From a virus: 29,919 bases of DNA. Below, in pieces: positions 837-29,577 of this stretch. Where the stretch lies: IMG/VR virus record IMGVR_UViG_3300024324_000057, positions 1-29,919 of that record; one strand, 5' to 3'. A model generated the notes under the pieces. The model worked only from the letters and a program-made list of their open reading frames with translations, had not been told where the DNA came from and did no database searches. Within the stretch, counting starts at the first letter, position 1; each line of letters starts with the position of its first letter. Made by a program: the position numbers and the translations under genes.

Positions 837-1190
837 ATGAAATCGTTCAAAGAATATCTAATAGAAGGACTACCGCATCACGGCGATGGCGACATTATAT
901 CTTTTACAGACGATGGTAAAAAAGAAAAAGGTATCGTATCGAAAGTAATTAGCCAAGGTCCCAACAGGGGTATGATTGATGTGCGATTGATAAACAACTT
1001 GGTCATTCGTGATGATCGTGGATATGCGTTCATGGGGCCTGTATATTGGAGAATTAATCAAGATGATATTCTGAAGGTCTTGGCTGTATTACCACCGACG
1101 TATCGTGGAACGGATAAAGATTTTGAAAAATACAACAAAGTTGCAAAAAAGCATTTTGATATAATTGACCAGAGGAAAAAGAAGAAATGA
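837..1190 (+). CDS. Small protein with capsid-targeting leader, function unknown
   Basis: 117 residues. The N-terminus MKSFKEYLIE|G closely resembles the T4 internal-protein capsid-targeting sequence (MKTYQEFIAE|A). A gp21-type cleavage site L-x-E falls after residue 10. This predicts packaging inside the prohead and removal of the leader. The remainder is small and beta-rich, with a lysine-rich tail (final QRKKKK); I do not recognise the family. It has a good ribosome-binding site (GAGAGGAG) directly downstream of a T4-type late promoter. Its stop overlaps the next start as ATGA, so it should be co-translated with the kinase-like gene, which carries the same leader. Confidence 0.75.
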   Translation: MKSFKEYLIEGLPHHGDGDIISFTDDGKKEKGIVSKVISQGPNRGMIDVRLINNLVIRDDRGYAFMGPVYWRINQDDILKVLAVLPPTYRGTDKDFEKYNKVAKKHFDIIDQRKKKK

Positions 1191-1939
1191 AATCATTCAA
1201 AATCCACCTAGAGGAAGCCAAGACTCCCAAGCCCTCGGCTGTATGGGTTGTAGGTGGTGCTGCTTCTGGTAAATCAACGATAGCCGAAGACGCTATCGTA
1301 AAGCAACTCGGTTTTGAATTGATTGATGTTGACCAGCCCTTCGAGGCTATGCTGAAGAAATTCAAGCTATCGCCCGTTATCGAAAAGCCTCCCGCTAAGA
1401 CAGCCGCGCAAAAGGCTGCCGACAAACTAAAACCCAAAGTTACAATGTCTGATCTAAAAGACCCTATGGATTTCTTCAATGGCAAGAAACCCAGCACTCT
1501 TGGTGCGTCTGCGGTAGCCCGCGAAATCACCAAACGTAAAAACGAAAGTGTGATGGCGGCTAAAAAGAATATTTGCTTTGTGGAAACCGGTGGTCAAATC
1601 GGTGCTATCAAAAACAAAAAGAAAGACTTAGAAGACCTCGGATACAAAACCTTCGTCGTCTATGTGGGCGTTCACCCTAAAAAGAATTTAAGCAACGAGA
1701 AAGAGTTTCAAGTTGTTCTAAATACACTGAAAGAGCGTGGTAATAAGCGGCTCAAAGGCGGTGGTCGTGGACTCGATCCTAAAATCCTTGAGTCTTCATT
1801 GCGCCAACAAATCAAAGTTCGTGACCAGTTACTACCTATCTTCAGCCGAAATCAATTGCTGATAGATACTACCGATGGCGATCCTCGTAAGAATATCGCC
1901 AAAACGAAGAAAACCATCCAAACCTGGATGAAGAAATAG
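1187..1939 (+). CDS. P-loop kinase (zeta-toxin-like) with capsid-targeting leader
   Basis: 250 residues. The leader MKSFKIHLEE|A carries an L-E-E|A prohead-protease site after residue 10. A Walker A motif GGAASGKST (residues 23-31) follows at once, with hydrophobic strands on both sides (AVWVV; ELIDVD with D47 and D49; NICFVETGG). Length and layout suit the zeta-toxin/polynucleotide-kinase class of P-loop kinases, which phosphorylate a nucleotide-sugar or nucleic acid. I cannot tell which substrate applies. The insert at residues 62-105 is lysine/alanine-rich and looks disordered. If packaged and injected, it could act on host metabolites at the very start of infection; that is inference. Confidence 0.7.
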   Translation: MKSFKIHLEEAKTPKPSAVWVVGGAASGKSTIAEDAIVKQLGFELIDVDQPFEAMLKKFKLSPVIEKPPAKTAAQKAADKLKPKVTMSDLKDPMDFFNGKKPSTLGASAVAREITKRKNESVMAAKKNICFVETGGQIGAIKNKKKDLEDLGYKTFVVYVGVHPKKNLSNEKEFQVVLNTLKERGNKRLKGGGRGLDPKILESSLRQQIKVRDQLLPIFSRNQLLIDTTDGDPRKNIAKTKKTIQTWMKK

Positions 1940-2387: not shown

Positions 2388-2531
2388 ATGGAAAATATCG
2401 TAACACAATATTGGCCTCAGCTTACGGCCTTTGTTATGGTTGTTATTGTACTAGCGAGAATGAAGACCGACATTGATATACTGAAGGACAAGGTAAAAAC
2501 CCTGTTCGACTTGTGGAATAAAGAAAAATGA
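2388..2531 (+). CDS. Small single-span membrane protein
   Basis: 47 residues. One hydrophobic segment (about residues 12-23, LTAFVMVVIVLA) is followed by a charged amphipathic helix (RMKTDIDILKDKVKTL). This layout, membrane anchor plus short coiled-coil-like tail, is common in small phage membrane proteins of the XhlA/holin-accessory kind. The sequence alone does not prove a lysis role. An AAAAGAG sequence precedes the ATG. Its stop overlaps the metallopeptidase start (ATGA). Confidence 0.55.
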   Translation: MENIVTQYWPQLTAFVMVVIVLARMKTDIDILKDKVKTLFDLWNKEK

Positions 2532-3232
2532 AAACATTCACCGACATAGCCGAGGGTATCACAAAACCAGTACCAAGAAACACTATCGTTTCTACCGTGC
2601 AGAAAGCACGTAAGGCTATTGTTGGGAATGAACTTTCACCGAGACAAATCGCGCAAGCGATGGGCAAAGCCCTCAAAACGAAGTTCGATATAGAGGCGAC
2701 CTTCCGCACAGTACAACTCGGACAAGGCATGGACCAAGGCGATATGAACATAAACGCCTTCTATTCATGGGCAGACGACGAGGACGGCGACACCGCGATC
2801 GAACTAGAATTCATGTTTAGCGCCGCTGACAAGAAATTGACGATTGGTAAAGAAGGCTGGGAATTCCTTATGAACGCCACGGTTGCCGCCCTTCAGCATG
2901 AACTACTCCACCAAAACCAGTTTCGGTTAAGGGGATTCAAGCATCAAAAAGACTTCACCAAATTTTCCAGTGAAATTCCTAAGGTCATGAAAGCCCAGAA
3001 GTACCTTGGAAACGACGACGAGATAGAAGCATTCGCCCTAAACATATCAAGAGAACTGGTCTCTTTCTATGGAAAAGACGGCGCACTCAATAAACTCCGC
3101 AATATCAAGAGTATCAAGCCCAACGAAAGCGTGAATATGTTCGCATATCTAGCAGCCTTTGGCTACGATACCAAGCATACGGTCATAAAAAAGCTACTCC
3201 GCAAGATCGTTTTGTTTATAAATAAGAGATAG
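2528..3232 (+). CDS. HExxH metallopeptidase-like protein with capsid-targeting leader
   Basis: 234 residues. The leader MKTFTDIAE|G has an I-A-E|G prohead-protease site after residue 9. The zinc-binding motif HELLH is at residues 124-128. A downstream helix DDEIEAFALNISREL (163-177) could supply the third ligand, as in gluzincins (E165 or E167). Between leader and motif lies an acidic region with beta strands. HExxH can occur by chance, but here it sits in a hydrophobic helix (VAALQHELLHQNQ) followed by the expected Glu helix, which supports a real peptidase. It would be a late, packaged enzyme delivered with the DNA; target unknown. A T4-type late promoter overlaps its end. Confidence 0.65.
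   Translation: MKTFTDIAEGITKPVPRNTIVSTVQKARKAIVGNELSPRQIAQAMGKALKTKFDIEATFRTVQLGQGMDQGDMNINAFYSWADDEDGDTAIELEFMFSAADKKLTIGKEGWEFLMNATVAALQHELLHQNQFRLRGFKHQKDFTKFSSEIPKVMKAQKYLGNDDEIEAFALNISRELVSFYGKDGALNKLRNIKSIKPNESVNMFAYLAAFGYDTKHTVIKKLLRKIVLFINKR
3217..3224 (+). promoter_or_regulatory. T4-type late promoter TATAAATA
   Basis: Exact TATAAATA inside the last codons of the metallopeptidase gene, about 78 bases before the ATG of the basic head protein. The transcript would begin with a roughly 70-base leader containing a strong hairpin. Confidence 0.6.
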
Positions 3233-4272: not shown

Positions 4273-4490
4273 TGACTAACCCATGGCACAACAACAAAAA
4301 CGACCCACTTGTAAACGCAGTACGCGACGTGGTACAAAAAGGCATGGTAAAACGTGAAGCTGATATGAATGAAATCGGGGCTGCTATGAATGCAGGCACA
4401 ACGGAACGCATCCAGGGTTTGAAAGCCTTAGAAGCGTTACATGCAACGCCTATGGAAGTCCAAACCGCACTAGGAACTAAAGATGATTAA
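4272..4490 (+). CDS. Hypothetical 72-residue protein
   Basis: Begins MTNPWHNNKNDPLVNAVRDVV; a small helical protein found between head-type genes. Overlaps the previous stop and, by 8 bases, the next start. The DPLVNAVRDV segment resembles small phage head/neck-region proteins, but I cannot name a family. Confidence 0.55.
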   Translation: MTNPWHNNKNDPLVNAVRDVVQKGMVKREADMNEIGAAMNAGTTERIQGLKALEALHATPMEVQTALGTKDD

Positions 4491-6882
4491 AGTCACCAAG
4501 AATGGTATCGTCAAGGAAGTAACCCTTGCAAGTATCTGGCTCAAAAAGGGTTGGGAACTGGCTGAGGGCGTCAACAGCGAAAAAGAAGGTGCGAAAGCCC
4601 CTGTTGGTAAAAAGAAGACTACCGACGACGACACCTCTGTTGACACCCAAAATCCAGAGATCGAAGGCGACAAGGGCGATAAGAAAAAGAAGGCTAAAAA
4701 AGAGCCTATCGAACTGAACCCAAAGTTAGAAGAAGAAACTCTTGACGAACGCAACTATGCCCTTGAGCGCAAGAACTATCATGGTACGCCAGAACAAATG
4801 GCCAAGAACCGTGCAAGAAAGCGCGCCCGCTATGCTATGGAGAAACTTGGTAAAGTCAAGCGCGGTGACAAAATGGATGTTCACCACAAAGACAACAACC
4901 CAGAGAACAACGACTCAAAGAACTTAGCCGTACAGACACAAGCGGTCAATCGCTCTGAGCCTAGACACCGTGACGACGCAGGGTCTGCTGGTCTTGGTGA
5001 AAGTATCAATGAGGGTGCTGTAAAAATAAGTAAAGCCCGCCTGATAAACAAATGGAATGTTACATGGCCCGCAGACACACCTAGGTCAGCCCATGTAAAA
5101 TCATTCAATGACGAAAAAGAAGCAAAGAAATTCGCCAAGGATAAAAGAAAAGAATTGGGTGAAGCCACACAGTATGACATAGATATGATGGGCACATTGG
5201 GCACCCGTGGTACACATAAAGTCACAGCCCGCACAGAAAAAGAAGCACACTATAAGGTCCGTCGCAAAGAAGGCCTTGGAAAACAGGACGTTCATTCCAT
5301 GAAAACAACAGAAACACCCGCCGACGAAATGACAGAAGATTCTGCTAGTCGTGCTTTCCGTGACGCCCGCCGTGGCATGAAAGCATCTGGTATGCTATCG
5401 AAGCGTGATAAGGCTGACCAGGACAATGATTCAGAAGAAGCCATTGATGGTAAAGAAGACAATATCATCATGCAACTCCGCAAGGCTGTTTCACTCCGCA
5501 ACGTCCAGAAGCCTGTTAAATTCCGTGACGGTAAGAAAGTCAAAGTGAATTCTGCACTAGCACAACAAGCAATGGATATGTTCAACTCTCTCCGAGGCGC
5601 AGATCGTAAAGAAGCGTTTATGAAGAAAATCTGGGCTTCCCATTCCGCTTTGCAGAAGGCTGTTCAAGAGGAAGTTGACTTGACGCCAGAAGAAATGGAT
5701 ATTTTCCTTGAGGCTATTACAATTACAGAGCGCACCAAGCAAGAGCCAGTCAAAGATGATAAGGATACCATTCTTGTCGTCAAGCGTGGTACTCAAAAGG
5801 TACAGCGTGTGAAAGCCTCCGAATGGAAAAAGTTGGAAAAGCAAGGCTATGTCCAGGCTGAAGAAACTGACCTCGAGGGTGAAATCATCTTTGAAGCAAA
5901 ATTCAAAATTCATGTTGAATTGGGTTCTGTTGATCCTACAGAGAAAAAAGAAAAGGTCACAGCAAAAACTAAAAGAGAAGCCGAACAGAAAATCATCAAA
6001 AAATACGAAACGACAACCCGTCGGGTGATGTTCCATTCGGTTATTGAAGAAGGCGCAATGCACGCGGCACTTGGCGCCGCCGTACCTCTCCTCACAGTAG
6101 GCACAGCTTTTGCTGTAAGTAAGATTGCTAAAGCCATGAAAGATCGTAAGAAGGGCAAAACAAAAGCCGCGAAGACCATCAAAAGTAAGAAGATGAAAGA
6201 AGAAGTTGACCTTGAGGGAATTGTGCTTGATGAAGGCAACAAGGTTCCTGACCAAACAGACGATACCCTTAGAAGTCTTATGGCAACTGCCAAAAGCCTT
6301 GCAATGAACCCTAAGAACAAGGGTAATAAAATTCTTGCTGGTAGAACCAAGCAACTCCGCGACGAAATGAAAAAGCGTGGTCTCAAAGAAAATGACGAGG
6401 GGTCAGAAGATACCTGTTCATGTGGTCACGTTGTTGGTGAATGCAAGTGCCCAGCCGATTGCAAATGCTCTTGCAACACCGAAGTTGAAACCACAGAAGA
6501 AACAGAAATGGTTACCGAAAGAAAGCAGAATTATCAAATCTATCATAATTCATATTCTTCGGCTGTTCAACACGGTCGCGAACATGCTGAAAAGCAAGGG
6601 TTTGAGGTCAGTGAAGATGATTGGTGGCATAAAGTTTCCACCGGACCTAAGAAGCCAAGCGAAGGTAAGACAAATTCCATTCGCATTCCAGTAAGCAAAG
6701 CAGGCAAGCCAACCAAAAAAGCCTTGTCTATGCAAGTCTTCGGTATGCCAAGTGGTAAATATGAATTGAACATGTATATCGAACACAATGACCATGAAAA
6801 TGAAACCGTGATTCGTGAAGAAACCAAGCCGAAAAAGAAGTCGCTTGAATCTTCAATCCGCGAGGTTATGTCGAAACGATAA
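4483..6882 (+). CDS. 799-residue lysine-rich virion protein with multiple prohead-protease sites
   Basis: A large modular protein. Residues 91-165 form an HNH-like module (KNYHGTPEQ, then DVHHKDNNPENN and KNLAV). Two similar modules share KVTA-R/K-T-x-x-EA (residues 246-255 and 491-500). A hydrophobic segment (about 527-547) could enter or cross a membrane. A Cys-rich knot (DTCSCGHVVGECKCPADCKC, 643-662) probably binds zinc. Sites matching T4 gp21 specificity, (L/I)-x-E before Ala/Gly, occur after E28, E177, E227, E471, E523 and E584. This suggests a packaged precursor cut into several basic peptides, like T4 internal proteins but joined in one chain. Function of each piece is unknown. Its start overlaps the previous gene by 8 bases. 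Confidence 0.65.
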   Translation: MIKVTKNGIVKEVTLASIWLKKGWELAEGVNSEKEGAKAPVGKKKTTDDDTSVDTQNPEIEGDKGDKKKKAKKEPIELNPKLEEETLDERNYALERKNYHGTPEQMAKNRARKRARYAMEKLGKVKRGDKMDVHHKDNNPENNDSKNLAVQTQAVNRSEPRHRDDAGSAGLGESINEGAVKISKARLINKWNVTWPADTPRSAHVKSFNDEKEAKKFAKDKRKELGEATQYDIDMMGTLGTRGTHKVTARTEKEAHYKVRRKEGLGKQDVHSMKTTETPADEMTEDSASRAFRDARRGMKASGMLSKRDKADQDNDSEEAIDGKEDNIIMQLRKAVSLRNVQKPVKFRDGKKVKVNSALAQQAMDMFNSLRGADRKEAFMKKIWASHSALQKAVQEEVDLTPEEMDIFLEAITITERTKQEPVKDDKDTILVVKRGTQKVQRVKASEWKKLEKQGYVQAEETDLEGEIIFEAKFKIHVELGSVDPTEKKEKVTAKTKREAEQKIIKKYETTTRRVMFHSVIEEGAMHAALGAAVPLLTVGTAFAVSKIAKAMKDRKKGKTKAAKTIKSKKMKEEVDLEGIVLDEGNKVPDQTDDTLRSLMATAKSLAMNPKNKGNKILAGRTKQLRDEMKKRGLKENDEGSEDTCSCGHVVGECKCPADCKCSCNTEVETTEETEMVTERKQNYQIYHNSYSSAVQHGREHAEKQGFEVSEDDWWHKVSTGPKKPSEGKTNSIRIPVSKAGKPTKKALSMQVFGMPSGKYELNMYIEHNDHENETVIREETKPKKKSLESSIREVMSKR

Positions 6883-6894
6883 CAGGAGAACGTA

Positions 6895-7149
6895 ATGCCA
6901 GCACCCAACCCAGATAAGTTGGAGCGTTTGTGGTACAGTTTTTTGAAGAATGCCAATAAGTTAGGATATGTCGTAAAGCCCAGTGAAATAGTGAACTTCC
7001 AACCCTGTCAAAATACCTGTAATATGGTACGAGGTAGGGTCGAAGTTCAAGCCCCAACCAGCTTAGAGTTAGTTGATATGGGGTACAAACCACGATATTC
7101 GCTGTCGCCGTTGCAAAAAGAAGCATATGACAATCAACAGAAATTATAA
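6895..7149 (+). CDS. Hypothetical 84-residue protein
   Basis: Good ribosome-binding site (CAGGAG) before the ATG. Has two nearby cysteines (PCQNTCNMVRG) and otherwise no motif I recognise. Its stop codon TAA lies inside a T4-type late promoter, as seen for the first gene of the window, so it ends the upstream transcription unit. Confidence 0.6.
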   Translation: MPAPNPDKLERLWYSFLKNANKLGYVVKPSEIVNFQPCQNTCNMVRGRVEVQAPTSLELVDMGYKPRYSLSPLQKEAYDNQQKL

Positions 7150-7152
7150 ATA
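7145..7152 (+). promoter_or_regulatory. T4-type late promoter TATAAATA
   Basis: Exact TATAAATA followed by GAGATATG, about 30 bases before the ATG at 7183, with a strong AAAGGAG ribosome-binding site in between. It fits high-level late expression of the decoration-type protein downstream. Confidence 0.65.
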
Positions 7153-7182
7153 GAGATATGGATATATCTAAAGGAGAACACT

Positions 7183-7797
7183 ATGCCCTTGTGGAAAAAT
7201 AGAGACACCGACACCGATGGAGCCAAGCCTCTATTTGTAGCGGGTGACCCACACGTTAATACACTAAACGTGATCGCAACCAACGAAGGTTGGGTACATC
7301 GCCGTACTTACACCGATATGCACTCAAAAGCCCGTGAGAAAAACGAAGTTTTGGTTGCTATCAACCGTCTTGCTGGTGCTGAAAACATTACAGACGCTGG
7401 TACAGAAGGCCTTGCCGCTGCGACCATCGTTGATGTTCGATTCACTGGTTTGCAAGTCGCAGCTGGTGGAACATCTAACCTTATCGTGACGTATAACGAA
7501 GAAGTTTATGTTACTGGCAACCCAACACTTGCTATTGCCGCCACAGCAACTTCAGCCAACACGTCACCGATTAGTGTTACATACACTTATGCGTCTGGTA
7601 ACGGTACTAACCGACTGACATTCTCTGGTACTATGGATGCTAACCAAGCATTCTATACAATCGGTGAAAATCCTGTTGTGCTTGCTGGTGGTACTATCAA
7701 GGACAAGTTGACATTTACAGCCAACTCTGACTTGACTATTCCTGCCGCACTGGCTGGTGCTAACTCTGTTCTCGGCGTTATGTACTCTAACACATAA
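7183..7797 (+). CDS. Virion decoration/surface protein with Ig-like beta domain
   Basis: 204 residues. The N-terminus MPLWKNRDTDTDGAKPLF resembles short N-terminal domains of structural proteins in cyanophage-like T4 relatives. From about residue 80 the protein is Ala/Thr/Ser/Gly-rich and reads as alternating beta strands (LIVTYNEEVYVTGNP, ISVTYTYASG, RLTFSGTMD, LTFTANSDLTIP), in the style of bacterial Ig-like repeats. It follows a T4-type late promoter and a strong AAAGGAG site. The likely role is head decoration or virion surface; exact location is unknown. Confidence 0.6.
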   Translation: MPLWKNRDTDTDGAKPLFVAGDPHVNTLNVIATNEGWVHRRTYTDMHSKAREKNEVLVAINRLAGAENITDAGTEGLAAATIVDVRFTGLQVAAGGTSNLIVTYNEEVYVTGNPTLAIAATATSANTSPISVTYTYASGNGTNRLTFSGTMDANQAFYTIGENPVVLAGGTIKDKLTFTANSDLTIPAALAGANSVLGVMYSNT

Positions 7798-7806
7798 GGG
7801 TAAATC

Positions 7807-8127
7807 ATGGCTGACCAAAAAATAACAGACCTTACTGCGGCGTCCTCGATTGCTGGTGAAGACGTTCTTGGTTTTGTTGATGACCCTAGTGGTACACCAA
7901 CGAACAAGAAAATCACCATCAACGAGATCTTCGCAGCGGTCCCAGCAAACACCGTGTTTAGTGGAAGTGTGGCGGTCGCAGGTGCGAACCTTCAGATTTT
8001 AACAACAGCAACCCCAGCCAATTCTACTGCGGTTGGTGTTGCAGGCAGTGTCCAATGGGATACCAGTTATGTCTACGTTTGTACCGCAACCGATACCTGG
8101 AAAAGGATCACTTTGACGAGTTTTTAA
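7807..8127 (+). CDS. Short fibre- or attachment-type structural protein
   Basis: 106 residues beginning MADQKITDLTAASSIAGEDV, a pattern common at the N-termini of phage tail-fibre and other surface proteins (KITDLTA...DVLGFVDDPSG). The C-terminal part (VGVAGSVQWDTSYVYVCTATDTWKR) matches a short beta module seen at fibre ends. The complete protein is only these two pieces, so it may be a small virion accessory protein rather than a full fibre. It sits 9 bases after the decoration-type gene. Confidence 0.6.
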   Translation: MADQKITDLTAASSIAGEDVLGFVDDPSGTPTNKKITINEIFAAVPANTVFSGSVAVAGANLQILTTATPANSTAVGVAGSVQWDTSYVYVCTATDTWKRITLTSF

Positions 8128-8133
8128 TATATC

Positions 8134-8484
8134 ATGGATTTGACAGCGAACAACTTTTTATTATTTGCCGCAAGAAACTACACCAACGATTACTGTGAGA
8201 GTGTAGATGAGTTTCACGATGACTTGAAAAAGATCAAGTATATCAAGCGGCTATTCAAGAAATACAGCAACGACGGTGAGTTAAGGGAAAGACTTATACT
8301 TAACCACCTCGTTGTCTTGTATAATGTTTTTGAAAGCGAGAGTCTGACAGAAATGCTCAAACTCAAGTTATCAGAATACGATAGTTATCTGAAGACGTTT
8401 CTATTCTACCTGAATTATTGGAACGACGCAAACGACACAACACCAATGGATACCAAAATCATTGATGCTTTAAGGAAAATTTGA
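8134..8484 (+). CDS. Conserved T4-relative protein of unknown function
   Basis: 116 residues, helical, beginning MDLTANNFLLFAARNYTN. I recognise this layout (DEFHDDLKKIKYIKRLF, then LRERLILNHLVVLYNVF) as a conserved protein of distant T4-like phages with no known role. The stop overlaps the ATG of the next gene. Conservation of this pair in related phages suggests linked functions, perhaps in virion assembly. Confidence 0.6.
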   Translation: MDLTANNFLLFAARNYTNDYCESVDEFHDDLKKIKYIKRLFKKYSNDGELRERLILNHLVVLYNVFESESLTEMLKLKLSEYDSYLKTFLFYLNYWNDANDTTPMDTKIIDALRKI

Positions 8485-10022
8485 TGGCCGGAGCAGTATT
8501 AGACATTTTTCTGGTCTACCAGTTTCTGAAGCGACTGGTACAGCCATTTGATGAAACCGATGCATATAAGCAGGGTATCATTGACGAGCGCGGTAAGCGT
8601 ACAGACAAGAAAATCTCAACCAAAGAAGAAAAAGACTCATATCGAATTTTCGATAAGATGGTTTTCAATCTCAAGAAATTGATCGAAAAGGTACCCTTTG
8701 GTAAAACTCGCATTGCGACCTATGCAGCCGCACTATTGCTTATCCGCGAACACCAGAATCCAAGTTATCAAGGTGGTCTACTCGCCGAGGCTTTTGAGGG
8801 TGCTATAGACGAATTTGAGAACAACCCCGAATCACTACAAGAACTGACCGAAGAAATTCTGGTCAATGAAGCCTCTGAAAAATACAAGGGTGTAATAATC
8901 AGTACCGACACTGGTGGTATGCGCCGTGGCGAAGGTGGTGGCAGAGCATCTTATTGGATTTCATCAAGAACCAGTAATAGTGGCAAAGAACGGTTCCGCA
9001 CGAAAAAAGAAGCCAAAGCCCATATCGACAATTTGAAAGAAGAAATCGCCAACGCAGTTGGTGGTGGTAACGTCGCTGGTACTGCACCCGGAGAAGATCC
9101 ACCCGTCAAAAAGAAAAAGAAAAAAGACGGTGTGGTACTACGCCGTGGGTTCAAGTCCTTTGTCAAAGAGGAAGCCGATGGCGCTCGTAAGCTGACCAAG
9201 GCAGACCTAGATGACGTTGAAAAGTTCGCAGACATGGCTTTCGCTAAGATGAAAATTGATGTTGAATTCACCCGCCACTTTTTGGACCGTGTGAACGACG
9301 CCCGCAACAAGAAACAGATTACAGCCGATGAACTAAAGATGTTGTTCGGTAAAGTGGCCAAGAAACATGCTGGTAAAATCCGTATGCTTGGTGACAAGGC
9401 GGAGCATATTATCAATTCTCTGAATACCGATATCAATTCACCGTTTGTTCTCAAACTAGACCGCGACAAGGGCTGGCTTGATATGACCATGAAGACGGTC
9501 ATGCGTAAGAAGAATTTCCGTATTGGTAAAGACCAGAAGAAATTCACCGTCGAGCAAGACCTTGAGGAATTGCGGGTTCAGAAGCCCCAAGCGAAAGATA
9601 CCCTAGGCATCCGCCGTGAGTATATGCCTCAAGTAGCCTCAAAAGATTACCCTGAATTGTTCATATTCTTGCAAAAAGCAGGGGCGAAATTGTCTAACAA
9701 GATGGTAGCCGCCCATGAACTGAAGCCTATTCAAAAGGAATTTTCCGATCAGGGCGTGACCAAGAGTATTGGTAAGGGTTTGTCGTTGGAACAAAAGCCT
9801 CTGATTATGTCGTCTGACGGCTATATCATTGACGGTCACCACAGATGGCTTTCCGTTATCAACACGAAACCCAAGAAAAAGATTCCGGTTATTCGCGTCA
9901 ATGTACCAGTCAGAAAATTACTGGCACTTGTGAAAGCCTTCCCGGGCACAACCTATAAAGATATCTATACCGAAACTCGTTTGGAAACCTCTCTCAAAAA
10001 AATGTCAGAAAAATGGCAATAA
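8484..10022 (+). CDS. Multidomain virion-associated protein with C-terminal ParB-like domain
   Basis: 512 residues from ATG 8484; AAGGA seven bases upstream supports this start over the TTG at 8481. Domain 1 (about 1-95) is a conserved phage domain (DIFLVYQFLKRL, then TRIATYAAALLLI). An L-A-E|A prohead-protease-type site follows at residue 102. Next come a short basic module (WISSRTSNSG...RFRTKKEAKAHI), a lysine run and a module FTRHFLDRVNDARN (about 262-275) with a conserved beta region. The C-terminal part has ELKPIQKEF and DGYIIDGHHRWLS, the signature of ParB/sulfiredoxin-like domains, which bind or cut DNA. This looks like a fusion of separately occurring phage modules, possibly cut during head maturation. 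Confidence 0.65.
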   Translation: MAGAVLDIFLVYQFLKRLVQPFDETDAYKQGIIDERGKRTDKKISTKEEKDSYRIFDKMVFNLKKLIEKVPFGKTRIATYAAALLLIREHQNPSYQGGLLAEAFEGAIDEFENNPESLQELTEEILVNEASEKYKGVIISTDTGGMRRGEGGGRASYWISSRTSNSGKERFRTKKEAKAHIDNLKEEIANAVGGGNVAGTAPGEDPPVKKKKKKDGVVLRRGFKSFVKEEADGARKLTKADLDDVEKFADMAFAKMKIDVEFTRHFLDRVNDARNKKQITADELKMLFGKVAKKHAGKIRMLGDKAEHIINSLNTDINSPFVLKLDRDKGWLDMTMKTVMRKKNFRIGKDQKKFTVEQDLEELRVQKPQAKDTLGIRREYMPQVASKDYPELFIFLQKAGAKLSNKMVAAHELKPIQKEFSDQGVTKSIGKGLSLEQKPLIMSSDGYIIDGHHRWLSVINTKPKKKIPVIRVNVPVRKLLALVKAFPGTTYKDIYTETRLETSLKKMSEKWQ

Positions 10023-10498: not shown

Positions 10499-11038
10499 AT
10501 GAAACGATTTATAGAACAAGCAATATTGTCGGAAGCGTCTGACCGCGGCTCAATGCCTGAAATATTTTTGGATATGGATGGCGTTGTGGCTGATTTTAAC
10601 CATGGCGCTGCAAGAGCAATGGACCGCAAATTCGGCGGTCGTCTTGACAACAACAAAATCACCAACGACGAATGGAAAATCATTCTCGCTACTCCTGATT
10701 TTTGGTTAACCCTACCCGTCTTAGCCGACGGCGTTCGCGTATATAAGTACGTCAAAAAGTATCGCTTGAATGTTTTGAGCGCAGCCCCTGATGGTGACCC
10801 CACTGCGGAAGCGCAAAAGAAAAAATGGTTCTTGAGCAAGATAGGAACCGTCTCTGGCAAAATCAACATTGTCAGACGTAAAGACAAAATCAAGTTTGCT
10901 GTCACTAACGGTACACCCAATATTCTCATTGATGATTTCAACAAGAATATCAAGGAATGGGAAGCAGCCGGTGGTATCGGAATCCTACATACCAGTGCCA
11001 AGAAAACTCTTGACGCATTGAAAGAATTAGGATTTTGA
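10499..11038 (+). CDS. HAD-superfamily 5'(3')-nucleotidase-like phosphatase
   Basis: 179 residues. HAD motif I is FLDMDGVVADF with nucleophile D25 and D27. Motif II is NVLSAAP (S94), and a late acidic motif NILIDDFNKN carries D145/D146. Length fits the 5'(3')-deoxyribonucleotidase group, which removes phosphate from nucleotides. The N-terminus MKRFIEQAILSE|A resembles the capsid-targeting leaders at 837, 1187 and 2528, with L-S-E|A after residue 12. It is less clear because the preceding helix differs. It may be a nucleotide-pool enzyme, a packaged enzyme, or both. Confidence 0.7.
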   Translation: MKRFIEQAILSEASDRGSMPEIFLDMDGVVADFNHGAARAMDRKFGGRLDNNKITNDEWKIILATPDFWLTLPVLADGVRVYKYVKKYRLNVLSAAPDGDPTAEAQKKKWFLSKIGTVSGKINIVRRKDKIKFAVTNGTPNILIDDFNKNIKEWEAAGGIGILHTSAKKTLDALKELGF

Positions 11039-14651: not shown

Positions 14652-14883
14652 GAATGATATAGGCGATGAAGTGATTGTTTTTGTTGGTCCACAACGAACC
14701 CAATATCGGGGTTTTGTCACCGATAAAAAATACAAAAAGAAACAAGGCTTCCGTGATTGCGCCATATATCAAATAGACAAAGTTGCAGGGTGGCATTATC
14801 AAGGCGTCACTTGCGATGCCAAATTGAACGACTTTCTAAAAAAAAATAACAAGCGGATTGCAGAGGAACGAAAAAACAAATGA
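14641..14883 (+). CDS. Hypothetical 80-residue protein
   Basis: From ATG 14641, which overlaps the end of thyX by 11 bases. Begins MPIENDIGDEVIVFVGPQ, a small beta-barrel-like start (SH3- or KOW-like pattern DEVIVF-x-RGFVTDKKYK), followed by a basic tail. The stop overlaps the RNR start (ATGA). Function unknown; coupling to RNR may matter. Confidence 0.55.
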   Translation: MPIENDIGDEVIVFVGPQRTQYRGFVTDKKYKKKQGFRDCAIYQIDKVAGWHYQGVTCDAKLNDFLKKNNKRIAEERKNK

Positions 14884-16823
14884 ATAACTACCTAGCCACC
14901 CCTTACCAAGAATTTATCCACCTAAGTCGTTACTCAAGATGGCTGCCCCTGTTGAACCGCCGTGAAACTTGGATGGAAACTGTCGAGCGATACTTTGACT
15001 TTTTTCAAGAGCATCTTTATGAGAACCATAAATTTCGTCTGACCAAGCCTATGCGTGACGAGTTGATGTTTTCTGTTCTTGAACAAAAAGTGTTGCCATC
15101 TATGCGCTGTCTTATGACGGCTGGTGAAGCACTGAAACGTGAAAATGTGGCTGGGTACAATTGTTCGTTCGTTCCTATTGATAACGTCCGTTCGTTTGAT
15201 GAAATCCTTTACATTCTTATGAACGGTACTGGTGTTGGTTTTACTGTTGAACGCCAAGACGTAAACAAACTACCTGAAGTGCCAGAAGAAATTTATCCTA
15301 CAGACACCGTGATAGTCGTGGCTGATTCCAAAATGGGCTGGGCTAAATCACTCAAGGAACTTATCAGCCTTTTGTATTCTGGGGCTATTCCTAGTTGGAA
15401 CACTGACAAAGTAAGACCAGCAGGCACTGTATTGAAAACTTTCGGTGGTCGTGCATCTGGTCCAGAACCTCTTGAGGATTTGTTCCGTTTCGTTGTTGCC
15501 ACTTTTCAGGCCGCTAAAGGGCGCAAACTGAATTCCCTTGAATGCCATGATATCGTTTGCAAGATCGCAGAGATTGTGGTCGTTGGTGGTGTTCGTCGTT
15601 CTGCACTAATTTCATTGTCTAACCTTTCTGACGACCGTATGCGCCATGCAAAATCTGGTCAGTGGTGGGAGAATGACGTTCAAAGGGCTCTTGCTAATAA
15701 TTCAGCCGCTTACACAGAGAAGCCAGACATTGGTATCTTTATGGAAGAATGGCTGTCGCTCTATAATTCAAAGTCCGGAGAACGAGGCATCTTCAATAGA
15801 GCCGCTGCTGAAAGACAAGCCATCAAATATGGTCGCCGTGAGGCTGGTCATGAATGGGGTGTAAATCCTTGTGGTGAAATCATCATGCGCCCACGTGGTT
15901 TCTGTAACCTCTCTGAAATCGTGGTTCGTGCTACTGATACGGCTGAAAGCCTAAAAGAGAAAGTTCGTCTTGCTGTTATCCTTGGTACATTCCAATCTAC
16001 CCTGACCAACTTCAAATACCTTACGAAGAAATGGAAAGAGAACGCAGAAGAAGAACGCCTGTTGGGCGTGTCTATGACTGGCATCATGGATAACGAATTG
16101 ACTAACGGTAAGATGGGCATGGCAAAACTAGAAGCCTTGCTTGACGAGTTGCGTCTGGTTGCTGTTGAAGTCAATGCCGAATGGTGTAAGAAATTGAAAA
16201 TCAACCAGTCGGTTGCGATCACTACGGTCAAGCCATCTGGTACAGCCTCACAGTTGGTCAATTCTTCTTCTGGTATTCACAGCCGTCACAGCACCCATTT
16301 CATTCGTCGTGTTCGTGGTGATAAGAAAGACCCACTTACCCAAATGATGATGGAAGCCGGCTTTCCCCATGAGGATGACGTTACGAAAGCAGATTCAACA
16401 ACCGTCTTTTCATTCCCACAACAATCCCCTAAGGGTGCTATTACCCGTGACGAAATGACCGCGCTCGACCAACTTCGGTTGTGGTTCGTTTATCGCAACC
16501 ATTGGACAGAGCATAACCCATCTATCACCGTTTCTGTAAGGGAACATGAATGGATGGATGTTGGCGCTTGGGTTTATGAAAACTTTGACGACGTTGGTGG
16601 TGTTTCGTTCTTGCCGCATAGCGAACACACTTATCGGCAAGCCCCGTATGAAGATATTTCAGCCATGGACTTTATTCAAATGGAGGGCGAAATGCCAACC
16701 GGTGTTGATTGGTCAAAACTCTCTGACTATGAACAAATGGATAACACAAGTGGTAGCCAAGAATTGGCGTGTTCTGCCGCCGGCGGCGCCTGTGAAATCG
16801 TTGATATTGGTGGTAACGTCTAG
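14880..16823 (+). CDS. nrdJ: Adenosylcobalamin-dependent (class II) ribonucleotide reductase
   Basis: 647 residues, like the monomeric RTPR type. Reducing cysteines: C95 (GYNCSF) and C342 (FCNLSE). Thiyl-radical cysteine: C331 with E333 in NPCGE. Glycyl-barrel motifs such as VKPSGTASQL are present. The C-terminal redox pair is C631 and C638 (ACSAAGGACEIVD). It makes deoxynucleotides using vitamin B12, in contrast to T4's class Ia enzyme, and works without oxygen. With ThyX it allows DNA synthesis independent of host NrdAB. The host must have or import cobalamin. All key residues are present. Confidence 0.9.
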   Translation: MNNYLATPYQEFIHLSRYSRWLPLLNRRETWMETVERYFDFFQEHLYENHKFRLTKPMRDELMFSVLEQKVLPSMRCLMTAGEALKRENVAGYNCSFVPIDNVRSFDEILYILMNGTGVGFTVERQDVNKLPEVPEEIYPTDTVIVVADSKMGWAKSLKELISLLYSGAIPSWNTDKVRPAGTVLKTFGGRASGPEPLEDLFRFVVATFQAAKGRKLNSLECHDIVCKIAEIVVVGGVRRSALISLSNLSDDRMRHAKSGQWWENDVQRALANNSAAYTEKPDIGIFMEEWLSLYNSKSGERGIFNRAAAERQAIKYGRREAGHEWGVNPCGEIIMRPRGFCNLSEIVVRATDTAESLKEKVRLAVILGTFQSTLTNFKYLTKKWKENAEEERLLGVSMTGIMDNELTNGKMGMAKLEALLDELRLVAVEVNAEWCKKLKINQSVAITTVKPSGTASQLVNSSSGIHSRHSTHFIRRVRGDKKDPLTQMMMEAGFPHEDDVTKADSTTVFSFPQQSPKGAITRDEMTALDQLRLWFVYRNHWTEHNPSITVSVREHEWMDVGAWVYENFDDVGGVSFLPHSEHTYRQAPYEDISAMDFIQMEGEMPTGVDWSKLSDYEQMDNTSGSQELACSAAGGACEIVDIGGNV

Positions 16824-22623: not shown

Positions 22624-22637
22624 TTTTCATTTTTCTC

Positions 22638-22681
22638 TTGACATTTGGTCGAAAATGGTGCATGATCAAATAGTAAGATCA
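22638..22681 (+). promoter_or_regulatory. Early sigma70-like promoter with operator-like inverted repeat
   Basis: TTGACA (22638-22643), 17 bases, CATGAT (22661-22666), with TGATC and GATCA arms spanning 22663-22681. Its 29-base core is the same as that at 10027. Leader AACAGAGAGAGAAAG leads to the ATG at 22703. Confidence 0.75.
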
Positions 22682-22702
22682 ACAGAGAGAGAAAGAAAAG
22701 AA

Positions 22703-25963: not shown

Positions 25964-25984
25964 GAGTTTTATTGCATTTAGGGG

Positions 25985-26028
25985 TTGACATTTGGTCAGA
26001 AATAGTGCATGATCAGATAGTAAGATCA
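25985..26028 (+). promoter_or_regulatory. Early sigma70-like promoter with operator-like inverted repeat
   Basis: TTGACA (25985-25990), 17 bases, CATGAT (26008-26013), and TGATC/GATCA arms (26010-26028). Leader GAACCAAGAGAGAGATT before ATG 26047 resembles the leader at 10071. Confidence 0.75.
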
Positions 26029-26046
26029 AGAACCAAGAGAGAGATT

Positions 26047-26256: not shown

Positions 26257-26274
26257 AAAAAGTGAAATTAGTGC

Positions 26275-26303
26275 TTGACATTTGCCGAAAAATAGCGTAT
26301 GAT
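26275..26303 (+). promoter_or_regulatory. Early sigma70-like promoter ahead of tRNA region
   Basis: TTGACA (26275-26280), 17 bases, TATGAT (26298-26303), followed by a weakened version of the repeat. No full-length gene follows, so it may transcribe the broken minigene at 26442 and the tRNA array. Confidence 0.7.
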
Positions 26304-26441
26304 CAAATTAAGATAGAGAAACAAACGAGAGAGTTAGAGGAGAGAACGAAAGAGATTGGTCAAGAGTTAGTCCGTTAAAACTACTAGAAGCAAATCGTTC
26401 GGCTGATAGTTATGGACACAGAAAATAAATAGAGAACGATT

Positions 26442-26811: not shown

Positions 26812-26887
26812 GAGCGTGATGCCGAATGGTAAGGTCTTCGCCTGCAAAGCGAAATTGAAGTCGGTTCGATTCCGACCATGCTCTCCA
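26812..26887 (+). tRNA. tRNA-Cys(GCA)
   Basis: Cloverleaf with acceptor GAGCGTG/CATGCTC, anticodon stem TTCGC/GCGAA, loop CTGCAAA (anticodon GCA), T-arm GTCGG-TTCGATT-CCGAC and encoded CCA. First gene of the array. Confidence 0.9.
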
Positions 26888-26893
26888 AATTAT

Positions 26894-26993
26894 AGCCTAT
26901 GCCCATTGGGGGCTGACTTTTAAGCCGCAAGTAAGAAAGTCCGGTATATCTTGCGAATACCGAATACAGGTTCGATTCCTGTTATGGCTGCCA
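26894..26993 (+). tRNA. tRNA-Leu-like gene with enlarged anticodon loop
   Basis: D-arm GCCC/GGGC, anticodon stem GACTT/AAGTC, long variable arm CGGTAT/ATACCG, T-arm ACAGG-TTCGATT-CCTGT, then G and CCA. The anticodon loop is 17 bases rather than 7; deleting ten (AAGCCGCAAG) would leave TTTAAGA with anticodon TAA. The acceptor pairs only at AGCC/GGCT, and the two bases between acceptor and D-arm are missing. Either a decayed leucine tRNA or one that needs unusual processing. Confidence 0.45.
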
Positions 26994-27150
26994 AATTAAG
27001 GGTGCGGGCGTGTTAAGAAACTTGAATGTTTCGGAAGTTAGTAAGGGGTCGACACCGAACTAATTTCTATCAAAGGGGTTCAACTCCCCTTTCTCTGAAA
27101 ATTACTGGGTTGAATTCCGCTTTTGGCGAAGCGTCGAGTTCCCCCTTTTT
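26994..27150 (+). other. Structured stretch with T-arm-like segments, no clear tRNA
   Basis: Contains GAAGTTAGT pairing with ACTAATTTC and a T-arm-like hairpin AGGGG-TTCAACT-CCCCT. A second T-loop-like GGGTTGAATTCC and a hairpin GCTT/AAGC before CCCCCTTTTT follow. No matching acceptor or anticodon arm was found. Possibly remnants of tRNA genes. Confidence 0.3.
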
Positions 27151-27154
27151 ATAA

Positions 27155-27251
27155 ACGCTTGATGTTCTACACAACAAAACTTTCCCAAGGGAATGTGTAG
27201 GCTACTGGTGTAAAGTTGGGAATAGAAACGGTTCGATTCCGTTCTAGCGTT
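27155..27251 (+). tRNA. tRNA-like gene with abnormal central part
   Basis: Normal T-arm AACGG-TTCGATT-CCGTT followed by acceptor strand CTAGCGT, which pairs with ACGCTTG; the pairing extends outward as ATAAACGCT/AGCGTTTAT (27151-27159 with 27246-27254). Between are TTCCCAA/TTGGGAA and CTACACA/TGTGTAG, mutually competing stems. A GTGTAAA near the end looks like a Tyr anticodon loop but lacks its stem. No CCA. Amino acid not assigned. Confidence 0.35.
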
Positions 27252-27261
27252 TATTTTATAT

Positions 27262-27346
27262 GCATTGGTTAGGCAGGTGGTGAGCCTAAGAGACTGTAAA
27301 TCTCCCGTTTTTTACTTTGAAGGTTCGATTCCTTCCCGATGCACCA
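27262..27346 (+). tRNA. tRNA-Tyr(GTA)
   Basis: Acceptor GCATTGG/CCGATGC, D-arm AGGC/GCCT with GG in the loop, anticodon loop CTGTAAA, enlarged variable region as in bacterial Tyr tRNA, T-arm GAAGG/CCTTC, encoded CCA. Confidence 0.85.
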
Positions 27347-27351
27347 ATCAT

Positions 27352-27428
27352 GCTTCTGTAGTCAAATGGATTTGGCACCTCCCTACGAAGGAGACATAAT
27401 GCAGGTTCGAATCCTGTCAGAAGCCCCA
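27352..27428 (+). tRNA. tRNA-Arg(ACG)
   Basis: Acceptor GCTTCTG/CAGAAGC, D-arm GTCA/TGGC, anticodon loop CTACGAA, T-arm GCAGG-TTCGAAT-CCTGT, encoded CCA. Confidence 0.85.
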
Positions 27429-27438
27429 ATTCAAATAT

Positions 27439-27512
27439 GGCGTTGCTAGTTCAGTGGCAGAATTCTTGACTGTGAATCAAGAGACCAGGGTTCGATTCCC
27501 GGCTCCGCCCCA
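27439..27512 (+). tRNA. tRNA-His(GTG)
   Basis: Anticodon stem CTTGA/TCAAG, loop CTGTGAA, D-arm GTTC/GAAT with GG, T-loop TTCGATT. A G at 27439 can pair with a C discriminator, as expected for His G-1. Two acceptor mismatches lie in the middle of the stem. Confidence 0.75.
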
Positions 27513-27521
27513 AAAAGAGAT

Positions 27522-27585
27522 GGCGTTGTGGCCTAGCTTCAAACGTTGCACTTACGGGGAACGGTGCATTAAACCTCCCGCCCCA
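27522..27585 (+). tRNA. Degenerate tRNA-like element
   Basis: Begins GGCGTTG and ends CCGCCCCA, both shared with the preceding tRNA-His, but the T-arm is not recognisable. The middle has CGTT/AACG and GCAC/GTGC in an order that would form competing stems or a pseudoknot. It reads as a decayed or rearranged copy of the His tRNA. Confidence 0.3.
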
Positions 27586-27594
27586 AAAATTAAT

Positions 27595-27670
27595 GGACCG
27601 CTTCCTAGTAGTGGCTATAGGGCAATCCTTTTAAGTTTGTTAGATCTGGGTTCGATTCCCAGGCGGTCCT
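27595..27670 (+). tRNA. tRNA-Lys(TTT)
   Basis: Acceptor GGACCGC/GCGGTCC, D-arm CCTA/TAGG, anticodon loop CTTTTAA, T-arm CTGGG-TTCGATT-CCCAG. CCA is not encoded (ends in T followed by CAT). Confidence 0.85.
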
Positions 27671-27674
27671 CATT

Positions 27675-27738
27675 CTGTAATCCTTGTTGAATATCGAACT
27701 ATTATAAAATAATAGCGAATAAACAACAAGGATTACAG
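27675..27738. repeat. Large inverted repeat between tRNAs
   Basis: CTGTAATCCTTGTTG (27675-27689) and CAACAAGGATTACAG (27724-27738) are perfectly complementary over 15 bases. Inside is another stem CTATTAT-AAA-ATAATAG plus TCG/CGA. In RNA this makes a long hairpin separating two Lys tRNAs. Confidence 0.85.
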
Positions 27739-27747
27739 CACATATAT

Positions 27748-27826
27748 GGATACGAAGGTAGTGGTGACTATACCAACGGTCTCTTAAACCGTGTATTCGA
27801 GGGTTTGATTCCCTCCGTATCCTCCA
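27748..27826 (+). tRNA. tRNA-Lys(CTT)
   Basis: Acceptor GGATACG/CGTATCC, D-arm GGTA/TACC, anticodon stem ACGGT/ACCGT, loop CTCTTAA, T-arm GAGGG-TTTGATT-CCCTC, encoded CCA. Confidence 0.85.
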
Positions 27827-27832
27827 AAGTTA

Positions 27833-27888
27833 GCGACCATCCACAAGGGACGTGTGGTAGCCAGAGGATTTCGCCTGCCTCCAGTCGC
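27833..27888 (+). other. tRNA-like fold lacking a T-arm (tentative)
   Basis: GCGAC/GTCGC close a region with two hairpins, CCACA/TGTGG and GAGG/CCTC. There is no T-loop. It could be a tRNA remnant or simply a structured spacer. Confidence 0.2.
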
Positions 27889-27905
27889 GCAATGTTTGTG
27901 ATAAA

Positions 27906-27997
27906 TTTGTTATTTCTACTGTCTACTAGGCACCAACATTCTGGACGCCGATGGTGCGGTATCCAACAAAATGCTAGTAGGCGGTAGTAATAACAAA
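27906..27997. repeat. Large imperfect inverted repeat between tRNAs
   Basis: 24-base arms (27906-27929 and 27974-27997) pair at all but one position if two G-U pairs are allowed. An inner stem GCACC/GGTGC sits in the loop. Separates the Lys and Val tRNAs. Confidence 0.8.
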
Positions 27998-28003
27998 CAC
28001 TTT

Positions 28004-28080
28004 GCCCGGTTGGCTTGATGGGGAAGCAGCACCTTTACACGGTGTGATTTATGTAGGTTCGAATCCTATCCCGGGTACCA
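28004..28080 (+). tRNA. tRNA-Val(TAC)
   Basis: Acceptor GCCCGGT/CCCGGGT, D-arm GCTT/AAGC with GGGG, anticodon stem GCACC/GGTGT, loop TTTACAC, T-arm GTAGG-TTCGAAT-CCTAT, encoded CCA. Confidence 0.85.
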
Positions 28081-28088
28081 AAGTTTTT

Positions 28089-28165
28089 TCCTGTGGGTCC
28101 CTATTGGGAGGGGAGTCGGCCTGTTAAGCCGGAAGTTACACGTTCGAGCCGTGTCACAGGAGCCA
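28089..28165 (+). tRNA. tRNA-Asn(GTT)
   Basis: Acceptor TCCTGTG/CACAGGA, D-arm TCCC/GGGA, anticodon stem TCGGC/GCCGG, loop CTGTTAA, T-arm ACACG-TTCGAGC-CGTGT, encoded CCA. Confidence 0.85.
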
Positions 28166-28172
28166 AATTCAT

Positions 28173-28260
28173 GGAGAGCAGCGCCAAGGTGGCAAAGCGG
28201 TGTTGAATACCGTGCCGGTGGTTAGTAGCCCCGATGTTTCGATTACATTGTTCTCCTCCA
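28173..28260 (+). tRNA. tRNA-Ser(TGA)
   Basis: Acceptor GGAGAGC/GTTCTCC, anticodon stem GCGGT/ACCGT, loop GTTGAAT (TGA), long variable arm, T-arm GATGT-TTCGATT-ACATT, encoded CCA. Confidence 0.85.
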
Positions 28261-28264
28261 ATAC

Positions 28265-28339
28265 CGACCCGTCTTCTAAATGAAATAGGAAACCACACTT
28301 TCAATGTGGATAATGCGAGTTTGAGTCTCGTCGGGTCGA
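28265..28339 (+). tRNA. tRNA-Glu(TTC)
   Basis: Acceptor CGACCCG/CGGGTCG, D-arm TTCTA/TAGGA whose loop lacks GG, anticodon stem CCACA/TGTGG, loop CTTTCAA, T-arm GCGAG-TTTGAGT-CTCGT. CCA is not encoded. Confidence 0.75.
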
Positions 28340-28348
28340 CATAGAGAA

Positions 28349-28395
28349 CCTCGTTTGTCTAAATAGCCATATGTAAGACTATTAGACAAACGAGG
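28349..28395 (+). promoter_or_regulatory. Hairpin sequestering the ribosome-binding site of the homing endonuclease
   Basis: CCTCGTTTGTCTAAATAG (28349-28366) pairs with CTATTAGACAAACGAGG (28379-28395), with one bulged A. The GAGG at 28392-28395, six bases before ATG 28402, is the probable ribosome-binding site and lies wholly in the stem. Confidence 0.75.
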
Positions 28396-28401
28396 TATCT
28401 T

Positions 28402-29025
28402 ATGTTCTATACGATCTATCAAACGACCGATACCAGAACCGGTAAAATCTATATCGGTAAACATCAAACAAAAAAATTGGATGATGGCTATATGGGTTCT
28501 GGTAAACTCATAAGACGAGTTATCGAAAAACATGGTAAAGAAGTCCTTGAAAAGAAAATCCTTCATGTATTTGATACCGAACAAGAAATGAATGCCAAGG
28601 AAGCGGAACTGGTTACAGAAGAATTTTGCCAACGAGAAGACACCTATAATTTATGTTCTGGTGGTCATGGTGGCTGGTCATATCTCAATAGAGAATATTG
28701 GTCGAAGTCTGAAAACTTTCATAAACGAAATTCTGGTCAAGTCAAAAATCATCCATCCAGAGTGGCCGCGGGACATAGAACATCAAAAATAAATTTTGCT
28801 AATGTTCATATAGACGGCTTGGCAAAATATAATAATTTCAAAGGCAAAAAACATACAGAAGATACTAAAAAGAAGATAAGTAAATGCCTTAAAGGAAGAA
28901 ACACAGGTGAACAAAGTTCCCAGTTCGGTTCCATGTGGATAACAAACAACCAAGAAACCAAGAAGATCAAAAAGACCGATGTTATTCCAGAAGGATGGCG
29001 CAAAGGTCGAACTATGGCGCGGTAG
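28402..29025 (+). CDS. GIY-YIG homing endonuclease with NUMOD-type DNA-binding repeats
   Basis: 207 residues. GIY-YIG core: FYTIYQTTD and KIYIGKHQ, DGYMGSGKLI, and a Glu in MNAKEAELVTEEF that suits the catalytic acid. The C-terminus has GKKHTEDTKKKISKCLKGR, a NUMOD3-type DNA-binding helix, and MWITNNQETKKI...IPEGWRKGR, a common end module of phage homing enzymes. It lies inside a tRNA array, a common target of such elements. Its start is masked by a hairpin, and its last codons overlap the following tRNA. Confidence 0.85.
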   Translation: MFYTIYQTTDTRTGKIYIGKHQTKKLDDGYMGSGKLIRRVIEKHGKEVLEKKILHVFDTEQEMNAKEAELVTEEFCQREDTYNLCSGGHGGWSYLNREYWSKSENFHKRNSGQVKNHPSRVAAGHRTSKINFANVHIDGLAKYNNFKGKKHTEDTKKKISKCLKGRNTGEQSSQFGSMWITNNQETKKIKKTDVIPEGWRKGRTMAR

Positions 29026-29086
29026 CTTAATCAAAGCAGTCCCCTAATAAGGGAAAAGATAGGGTGAAACTCCCTCCAAGCCACCA
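29016..29086 (+). tRNA. tRNA-like gene, anticodon reads AAT (Ile?)
   Basis: Acceptor GGCGCGG/CCAAGCC with two central mismatches, D-arm GCTT/AAGC with a five-base loop lacking GG, anticodon stem CCC/GGG, loop CTAATAA, T-loop TGAAACT in place of the usual TTCGANT, encoded CCA. The first ten bases are also the last codons of the endonuclease gene. The AAT anticodon is unusual for bacterial Ile. Likely decayed or specialised. Confidence 0.45.
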
Positions 29087-29090
29087 ATAA

Positions 29091-29181
29091 TACCCCTATA
29101 GTTTAACGGTAAAACACCGGTTTTATAAACCGCACAGTCTCCAGATTAGAGAGCGATGTGGGTTCGATTCCGAAGGGGATA
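29091..29181 (+). tRNA. tRNA-like gene with long variable arm, anticodon reads TAT
   Basis: D-arm GTTT/AAAC with GG, anticodon stem CGGT/ACCG and loop TTTATAA. A long variable hairpin (TCTC/GAGA) of the kind seen in Leu/Ser/Tyr tRNAs follows, then T-loop TTCGATT with a weak T-stem. CCCC/GGGG pairs form the core of an imperfect acceptor. CCA is absent. A TAT anticodon (Ile) with a long arm is not a normal combination. Confidence 0.45.
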
Positions 29182-29191
29182 ACTAATTCAT

Positions 29192-29266
29192 GTTGGTGTA
29201 GCTCAGTGGTAGAGCGTCGGTCTCCAAAACCGAGCGTCGGGGGTTCGATTCCTCTCACCTTCGCCA
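29192..29266 (+). tRNA. tRNA-Trp(CCA)
   Basis: D-arm GCTC/GAGC with GG, anticodon stem TCGGT/ACCGA, loop CTCCAAA, T-arm GGGGG-TTCGATT-CCTCT, encoded CCA. Acceptor GTTGGTG/CACCTTC has two mismatches near the end. Confidence 0.85.
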
Positions 29267-29272
29267 ATTTAT

Positions 29273-29346: not shown

Positions 29347-29351
29347 ATTAT

Positions 29352-29575: not shown

Positions 29576-29577
29576 AG

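Follow-up and report, generated by a model that had tools for sequence, protein, structure and literature searches.

In bacteriophage T4, the prohead protease gp21 cuts after L/I-x-E (PMC9026906), and the internal proteins IPI, IPII, IPIII and Alt, each with its own gene, are targeted by a leader of ~10 residues that ends in [L/I]xE, is cut by this protease and precedes delivery of the protein with the DNA (PMC9026906). The T4 core proteins gp22, gp67 and gp68 are single polypeptides with several LxE cuts that serve as scaffold; gp21 turns gp22, gp67 and a third core protein into multiple fragments, most of which are removed from the head (PMC9026906). The ejection proteins of the giant phages phiKZ and SPN3US (gp53/gp54 in the latter) also involve a gp21-related protease and x-E motifs (AXE in SPN3US), with N-terminal propeptides being cut away piecemeal to leave a single mature protein (PMC10052503). 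The so-called polyvalent proteins, P1 DarB/DdrB included, are injected proteins that each join many unrelated domains; a built-in metallopeptidase was proposed to process them, and a polyprotein analogy was drawn (Iyer et al. 2017, PMC5512222). Among the open-access papers searched this is the closest published idea, relying on a self-processing peptidase instead of a capsid protease, and no described polyprotein was found there for T4-like phages.

Here we analysed a 29.9-kb virus contig, the entire database record (hereafter the window), evidently part of a T4-like phage genome: by gene order and best matches it falls near Methylophilales phage Melnitz and other T4-like phages (Kyanoviridae). 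One ORF on its + strand encodes a modular protein of 799 aa (Table 1) that is probably a head-cargo polyprotein, whose joints would be cut by a gp21-type prohead protease and whose pieces would be injected. Leaders of the T4 internal-protein type are carried by its neighbours and by stand-alone versions of related modules, as in T4, but several modules share one ORF here, with leaders or sites between them. As in gp22, gp67 and gp68, a single polypeptide would be cut several times (the cuts here being predicted), yet the modules are exchangeable and some are enzyme-like. At least two unrelated domains were found in the protein (HNH-like, NIIMQLRK and C-terminal modules), as in polyvalent proteins; unlike in these, no peptidase domain was found among the Pfam or PHROG matches, and the proposed protease would act in trans.

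Table 1. Features of the modular locus and its neighbours in the 29.9-kb window (↓, predicted cut; residues are those of the 799-aa protein).
Feature	Position	Strand	Basis
Neighbour, CTS-like start MKSFKEYLIE↓G	837..1190	+	sequence
P-loop kinase, CTS-like start MKSFKIHLEE↓A	1187..1939	+	homologous module internal in several long ORFs
Neighbour, CTS-like start MKTFTDIAE↓G	2528..3232	+	sequence
Modular protein, proposed head-cargo polyprotein	4483..6882	+	ORF; shuffle test; modules kept in L033
Short N-terminal module, residues 1-28, ends LAE↓G	4483..4566	+	sequence; L033 IVE↓V, Glu kept
HNH-nuclease-like module, residues 89-162	4747..4968	+	phrog_4590; PF13392 below cut-off
Joint region LGE↓SINE↓GA, E173 and E177	4999..5013	+	LGE kept in L033 at first position
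Candidate cleavage Glu 227, LGE↓A	5161..5163	+	L033: MDE↓S
KVTA module copy 1, residues 228-280	5164..5322	+	conserved in L033
Joint Glu 285, MTE↓D	5335..5337	+	LTE↓A in L033
NIIMQLRK module, residues 324-416	5452..5730	+	AlphaFold2; other loci, different surroundings
Candidate cleavage Glu 471, IFE↓A	5893..5895	+	low-confidence linker; segment not in L033
KVTA module copy 2, residues 472-523, ends IEE↓G	5896..6051	+	sequence
Hydrophobic-then-basic segment, residues 524-584, ends KKMKEEVDLEGIVLDE↓G	6052..6234	+	sequence
Cys-rich cluster CSCGHVVGECKCPADCKCSC, residues 645-664	6415..6474	+	conserved in L033
Joint Glu 679, VTE↓RKQ, ahead of C-terminal module	6517..6519	+	context statistics
C-terminal YxxYHxxYSSA module, residues 684-767	6532..6783	+	AlphaFold2; IMG/VR relatives; stand-alone and fused forms
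Second modular ORF, 513 aa, ParB-like part included	8481..10022	+	profile and relative matches
Internal CTS-like GFKSFVKEEA (VKE↓E, weaker match) in ORF 8481-10022	9147..9176	+	sequence
5'(3')-deoxyribonucleotidase-like gene, CTS-like start MKRFIEQAILSE↓A	10499..11038	+	sequence

The original prediction listed six (L/I)-x-E sites followed by Ala or Gly in this protein, after residues 28, 177, 227, 471, 523 and 584, all of which are present and exceed the number expected from composition-preserving shuffles (6 vs 1.09, p=0.0003); [LI]xE alone is less enriched (13 vs 7.6, p=0.03). The list is correct in its positions and incomplete, since relatives point to two more joints, MTE↓D (residue 285) and VTE↓R (residue 679), which had been missed because of the A/G filter; a further LGE↓S ends at residue 173. 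Requiring L/I before A/G proved too narrow, the consensus of the group being [LIVM]xE↓(A,G,K,S,R), and the six sites are therefore neither complete nor of equal quality. Half of them (471, 523 and 584) lie in segments absent from the nearest relative. There is no obvious 10-residue CTS at the N-terminus, the first site being the LAE↓G at residue 28.

The shared KVTAxTxxEA core does occur in two copies (residues 246-255 and 491-500), the cluster described as a Cys knot is present as a Cys cluster, and the proposed HNH-like module is matched by phrog_4590 (E=3.7e-10) and by Pfam HNH_3 (PF13392, E=5.6e-5, although at 23.1 bits slightly below the curated cut-off of 24.8). This HNH-like module is also found within a 1043-aa ORF of a related locus (L034), the short N-terminal module is resembled by a second copy at ~429-461, and KKKMKEEVDL.E, as in the segment 524-584, recurs at joints in L001 and L002. 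Calling the modules lysine-rich was loose wording, the net charge of the predicted pieces ranging from -3 to +6. AlphaFold2 (23 sequences) modelled the NIIMQLRK module (324-416; pLDDT ~84-95 over most of it) and the C-terminal domain (684-770; pLDDT ~90-96) with confidence, placing sites 28, 177, 471, 523, 584 and 679 in low-confidence stretches and E227 at the end of a mixed-confidence helix. Foldseek found nothing significant in the PDB for this model (best E=0.065), so we give the folded modules no function.

Judging from relatives, proteins of this type are mosaics of exchangeable modules in which the sites mark the joints. A query with the whole protein retrieved only two loci. The nearest relative, in L033 (830 aa, ORF 6173-8665), shares long blocks of ~57-61% identity, whereas others have been exchanged, inserted or lost. 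In the aligned modules, the adjoining residues vary around a constant joint Glu (window/L033: LAE↓G/IVE↓V; LGE↓S/LGE↓G; LGE↓A/MDE↓S; MTE↓D/LTE↓A; VTE↓R/VLE↓K), and a module present only in L033 is flanked by LGE↓A and LTE↓A. By count, strict LxE↓A/G sites are few in related polyproteins (3 vs 0.84 expected in L033, p=0.05), and shuffles gave no enrichment for the ORF at 8481-10022. The clearest case is the 702-aa protein that L034 encodes at the corresponding position, with eight [LI]xE[AG] sites (0.8 expected), five of the form EEV(D/E)LDE↓(A/G) and one EEFDLDE↓A, that separate compact units, two of these being duplicates; the joint DNA is nearly identical, so recent duplication accounts for part of this regularity. 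A single-sequence fold of the L034 protein was discarded as a poor model (mean pLDDT 47). Longer sister ORFs of 990-1163 aa resembling polyproteins occur in L007 (10001-12973), L008 (6151-9642), L009 (7789-10869) and L034 (880-4011), and variously combine an NMNAT-like nucleotidyltransferase, DUF5824, a zeta/AAA kinase and others. Related ORFs have CTP_transf_like and zeta/AAA domains as extras. The polyprotein idea of the original prediction is supported, but its term 'peptides' was too modest, as neighbouring polyproteins contain nucleotidyltransferase and kinase domains.

Conservation of the sites relative to their surroundings had been suggested as a check, and the sites are indeed the more conserved, lying at module joints. 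For the C-terminal module, relatives amounted to 570 candidate stretches in IMG/VR, of which the best 80 loci were kept. Among these best 80 of 570, the joint carries [LIVM]xE[AGSKR] in 47 of the 49 distinct internal instances and, when independent upstream contexts are counted, in 36 of 38, whereas random positions in the same proteins gave a mean of 6.2 and a maximum of 16 in 2000 draws against those 36. P1 is Glu and P3 L/I/V/M in nearly all contexts, although the upstream sequences are unrelated. In joints anchored on Glu, P3 is L/V/I/M in 45 of 48, a figure that is partly built in, as the anchor favoured a hydrophobic P3 (the random-position test is free of this); P1' is mostly Ala, then Lys, and positions further upstream are unconstrained except for some acidic preference. 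P3 and P1' are thus less strict than in T4, with P3 widened to V and M. The motif was also found at the joint of a kinase module (17/17 distinct internal instances and 12/13 stand-alone starts) and, more weakly, of an 'HCDN' module (AEYQGK...RARHNCDNPGP...; 18/23 distinct instances, 5/8 independent contexts). When all shuffled-module joints (~650-700) were counted with coverage limits and control motifs and with no module picked, LxE[AGS] peaked at 4.3x background at module starts and 6.2x at module ends, and still at 3.5x and 5.3x after removal of the C-terminal module, while LxD, LxK and polar-x-E gave 1.0-1.9x. This count replaced an unfiltered junction analysis that was contaminated by ordinary truncated alignments.

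Modules that are internal in some phages are separate genes in others, and the stand-alone genes of the C-terminal, kinase and 'HCDN' modules begin with a T4-CTS-like leader that ends in the joint motif. For the zeta-toxin/P-loop kinase, the stand-alone genes start MKTFAELQE↓GVYDPNIFK, MDNFKEHLELME↓GVNDPSIFK and, in HTVC008M, MIPFILKE↓GLYDPGIFK, and the internal joints read FEELLTE↓GVHDKGIFK, GFKSFKQYIEE↓GVNDPAIFK and GFKEHLELEE↓GVNDPAIFK. The second of the stand-alone starts set against the last of the internal joints shows that the head-targeting leader was retained at the fusion joint. The C-terminal module likewise starts MIKLKSLLTE↓AKFDVYHN when alone, and the less uniform 'HCDN' module is found as MISFKQFITE↓AEYQGR alone and VVNE↓AEYQGK when internal. 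Stand-alone and fused modules are thus equivalent, and at the level of sequence this equivalence, together with joint conservation, favours the polyprotein interpretation.

The leading alternative, which we judge unlikely, is packaging and injection of an intact multidomain 'polyvalent' protein, with the LxE motifs being ordinary acidic interdomain linkers. Injected multi-domain phage proteins form a known class (PMC5512222), P1 DarB carries an N-terminal signal and is packaged at a size of 250 kDa (PMC9024508), and much of the sequence between folded modules is predicted by AlphaFold2 with low confidence, as expected of linkers. A linker would have no need of the entire CTS-like leaders seen at internal fusion joints, however; motifs with an altered P3 or P1 give no joint peak, and the joint Glu and hydrophobic P3 persist despite wholly different upstream sequence.

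Four genes in the window have CTS-like starts (0.59 expected, P=0.0016). In the second modular ORF, the first two modules with matches each exist as a gene of their own in Melnitz, the internal CTS-like sequence preceding a module that Melnitz has as a separate gene. A search of the Melnitz genome for clusters of N-terminal CTSs found the equivalent locus there only mildly enriched (4/11 genes at 10-20 kb), the simple pattern being too loose for that genome. As the window is a fragment, no gp21 protease gene was seen within its 29.9 kb; Melnitz encodes a Peptidase_S77 of the gp21 type (PF03420, E=1.5e-31), and in its capsid protein gp23 an LxE↓A site marks the propeptide (LSE↓A, residue 52, before the Pfam Gp23 domain), with LTE↓A at the equivalent place in gp23 of cyanophage S-SZBM1.

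Other features of the window were also noted. A Mom-type DNA modification protein (23-817; PF25680, E=1.7e-51) probably serves restriction evasion. The gene at 3302-4051 matches positions 262-416 of the cytidylyltransferase family phrog_3041 without the nucleotidyltransferase domain, a cargo that seems to have been lost or moved in this phage. The ribonucleotide reductase (RNR) large subunit (14880-16823, phrog_367) has a Pfam match that hints at the B12-dependent class (RNR-II insertion domain, E=6e-4), and its Melnitz counterpart is annotated as B12-dependent. Three copies of a 58-nt repeat containing TTGACA (22625-22682, 25972-26029 and 26262-26319) are likely a recurring sigma70-type promoter upstream of small genes. 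An array of 14 tRNA genes predicted by ARAGORN (26812-29919) includes a GIY-YIG-type homing endonuclease gene (28402-29025, phrog_314).

Published proteomes of related cyanophages show products of the syntenic locus in virions of S-CREM2, namely gp154 (a cytidylyltransferase starting MKNFSSFLTE↓A), gp155, gp156 and gp160 (PMC10665884), and of S-SZBM1, namely S-SZBM1_136, _139 and _140, of which _140 starts MRFRQFIIE↓A (PMC9146016). The list also includes an NMNAT in S-SCSM1 virions (PMC9602691) and a cytidylyltransferase in those of S-SM1 (PMC3037559). Some of the authors warn that the CsCl preparation may have carried over part of the proteins detected (PMC10665884, PMC9602691). By analogy with the S-CREM2 and S-SZBM1 products, the 799-aa protein may also be present in virions.

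These virion data bear on a further alternative, a core or scaffold protein of the prohead comparable to T4 gp22, gp67 and gp68, whose fragments would mostly exit the head and have no function after injection. Besides the fate of the T4 core proteins (PMC9026906), it draws on several modules of the 799-aa protein being small and charged, and on LEE↓A and LEE↓G sites in Melnitz gp22. We hold it to be quite improbable, given that mature virions of S-CREM2 and S-SZBM1 contain products of the locus, that sister modules are enzyme-like (kinase, nucleotidyltransferase) and one module in the window is HNH-like, and that module swapping among phages suits accessory cargo better. In Melnitz, moreover, the equivalent stretch is flanked by the primase-helicase region on one side and the gp61 primase/RNR genes on the other, remote from the head genes.

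The P3 and P1' codons at joints differ between genomes, and it is therefore the protein motif, not the DNA, that is conserved. That the joints are mere recombination scars, i.e. short repeated DNA without function at the protein level, is very improbable in spite of the nearly identical codons of the EEV(D/E)LDE joints in L034, as P3 codons are diverse across genomes (Leu, Ile, Val, Met) with a constant amino-acid class, and the motif also stands at the N-terminus of stand-alone genes, where there is no joint.

For the head-cargo polyprotein, we infer the following course from late expression to a role after injection. The 799-aa precursor, of about nine modules bound for the phage head, would be produced late and pulled into the prohead core. 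During shell maturation, a gp21-type prohead protease (Peptidase S77) would cleave after Glu at the [L/I/V/M]-x-E joints, and the small separate proteins released would stay with the DNA and pass into the host cell at infection. Related phages gain, lose and exchange cassettes that each consist of a joint and a module; a stand-alone internal-protein gene keeps its capsid-targeting leader on fusion, and this leader turns into the next joint. More generally, we lean towards the view that in T4-like marine phages protease-cleavable joints are standard connectors, by which stand-alone genes for head-packaged proteins, with their leaders, are fused and swapped to give fast-evolving multi-cargo polyproteins cut in trans by the capsid protease in the prohead.

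If this is true, phages of abundant marine bacteria tie polyprotein processing to capsid maturation, and one core-binding precursor could load many injected proteins. It would also explain the repeated occurrence of NMNAT-like enzymes in cyanophage virions. A joint motif beside a module would then be a sequence rule for spotting injected cargo among unnamed genes of the Kyanoviridae type, and the arrangement may be a natural design for bringing several proteins into a T4-type head via one gene.
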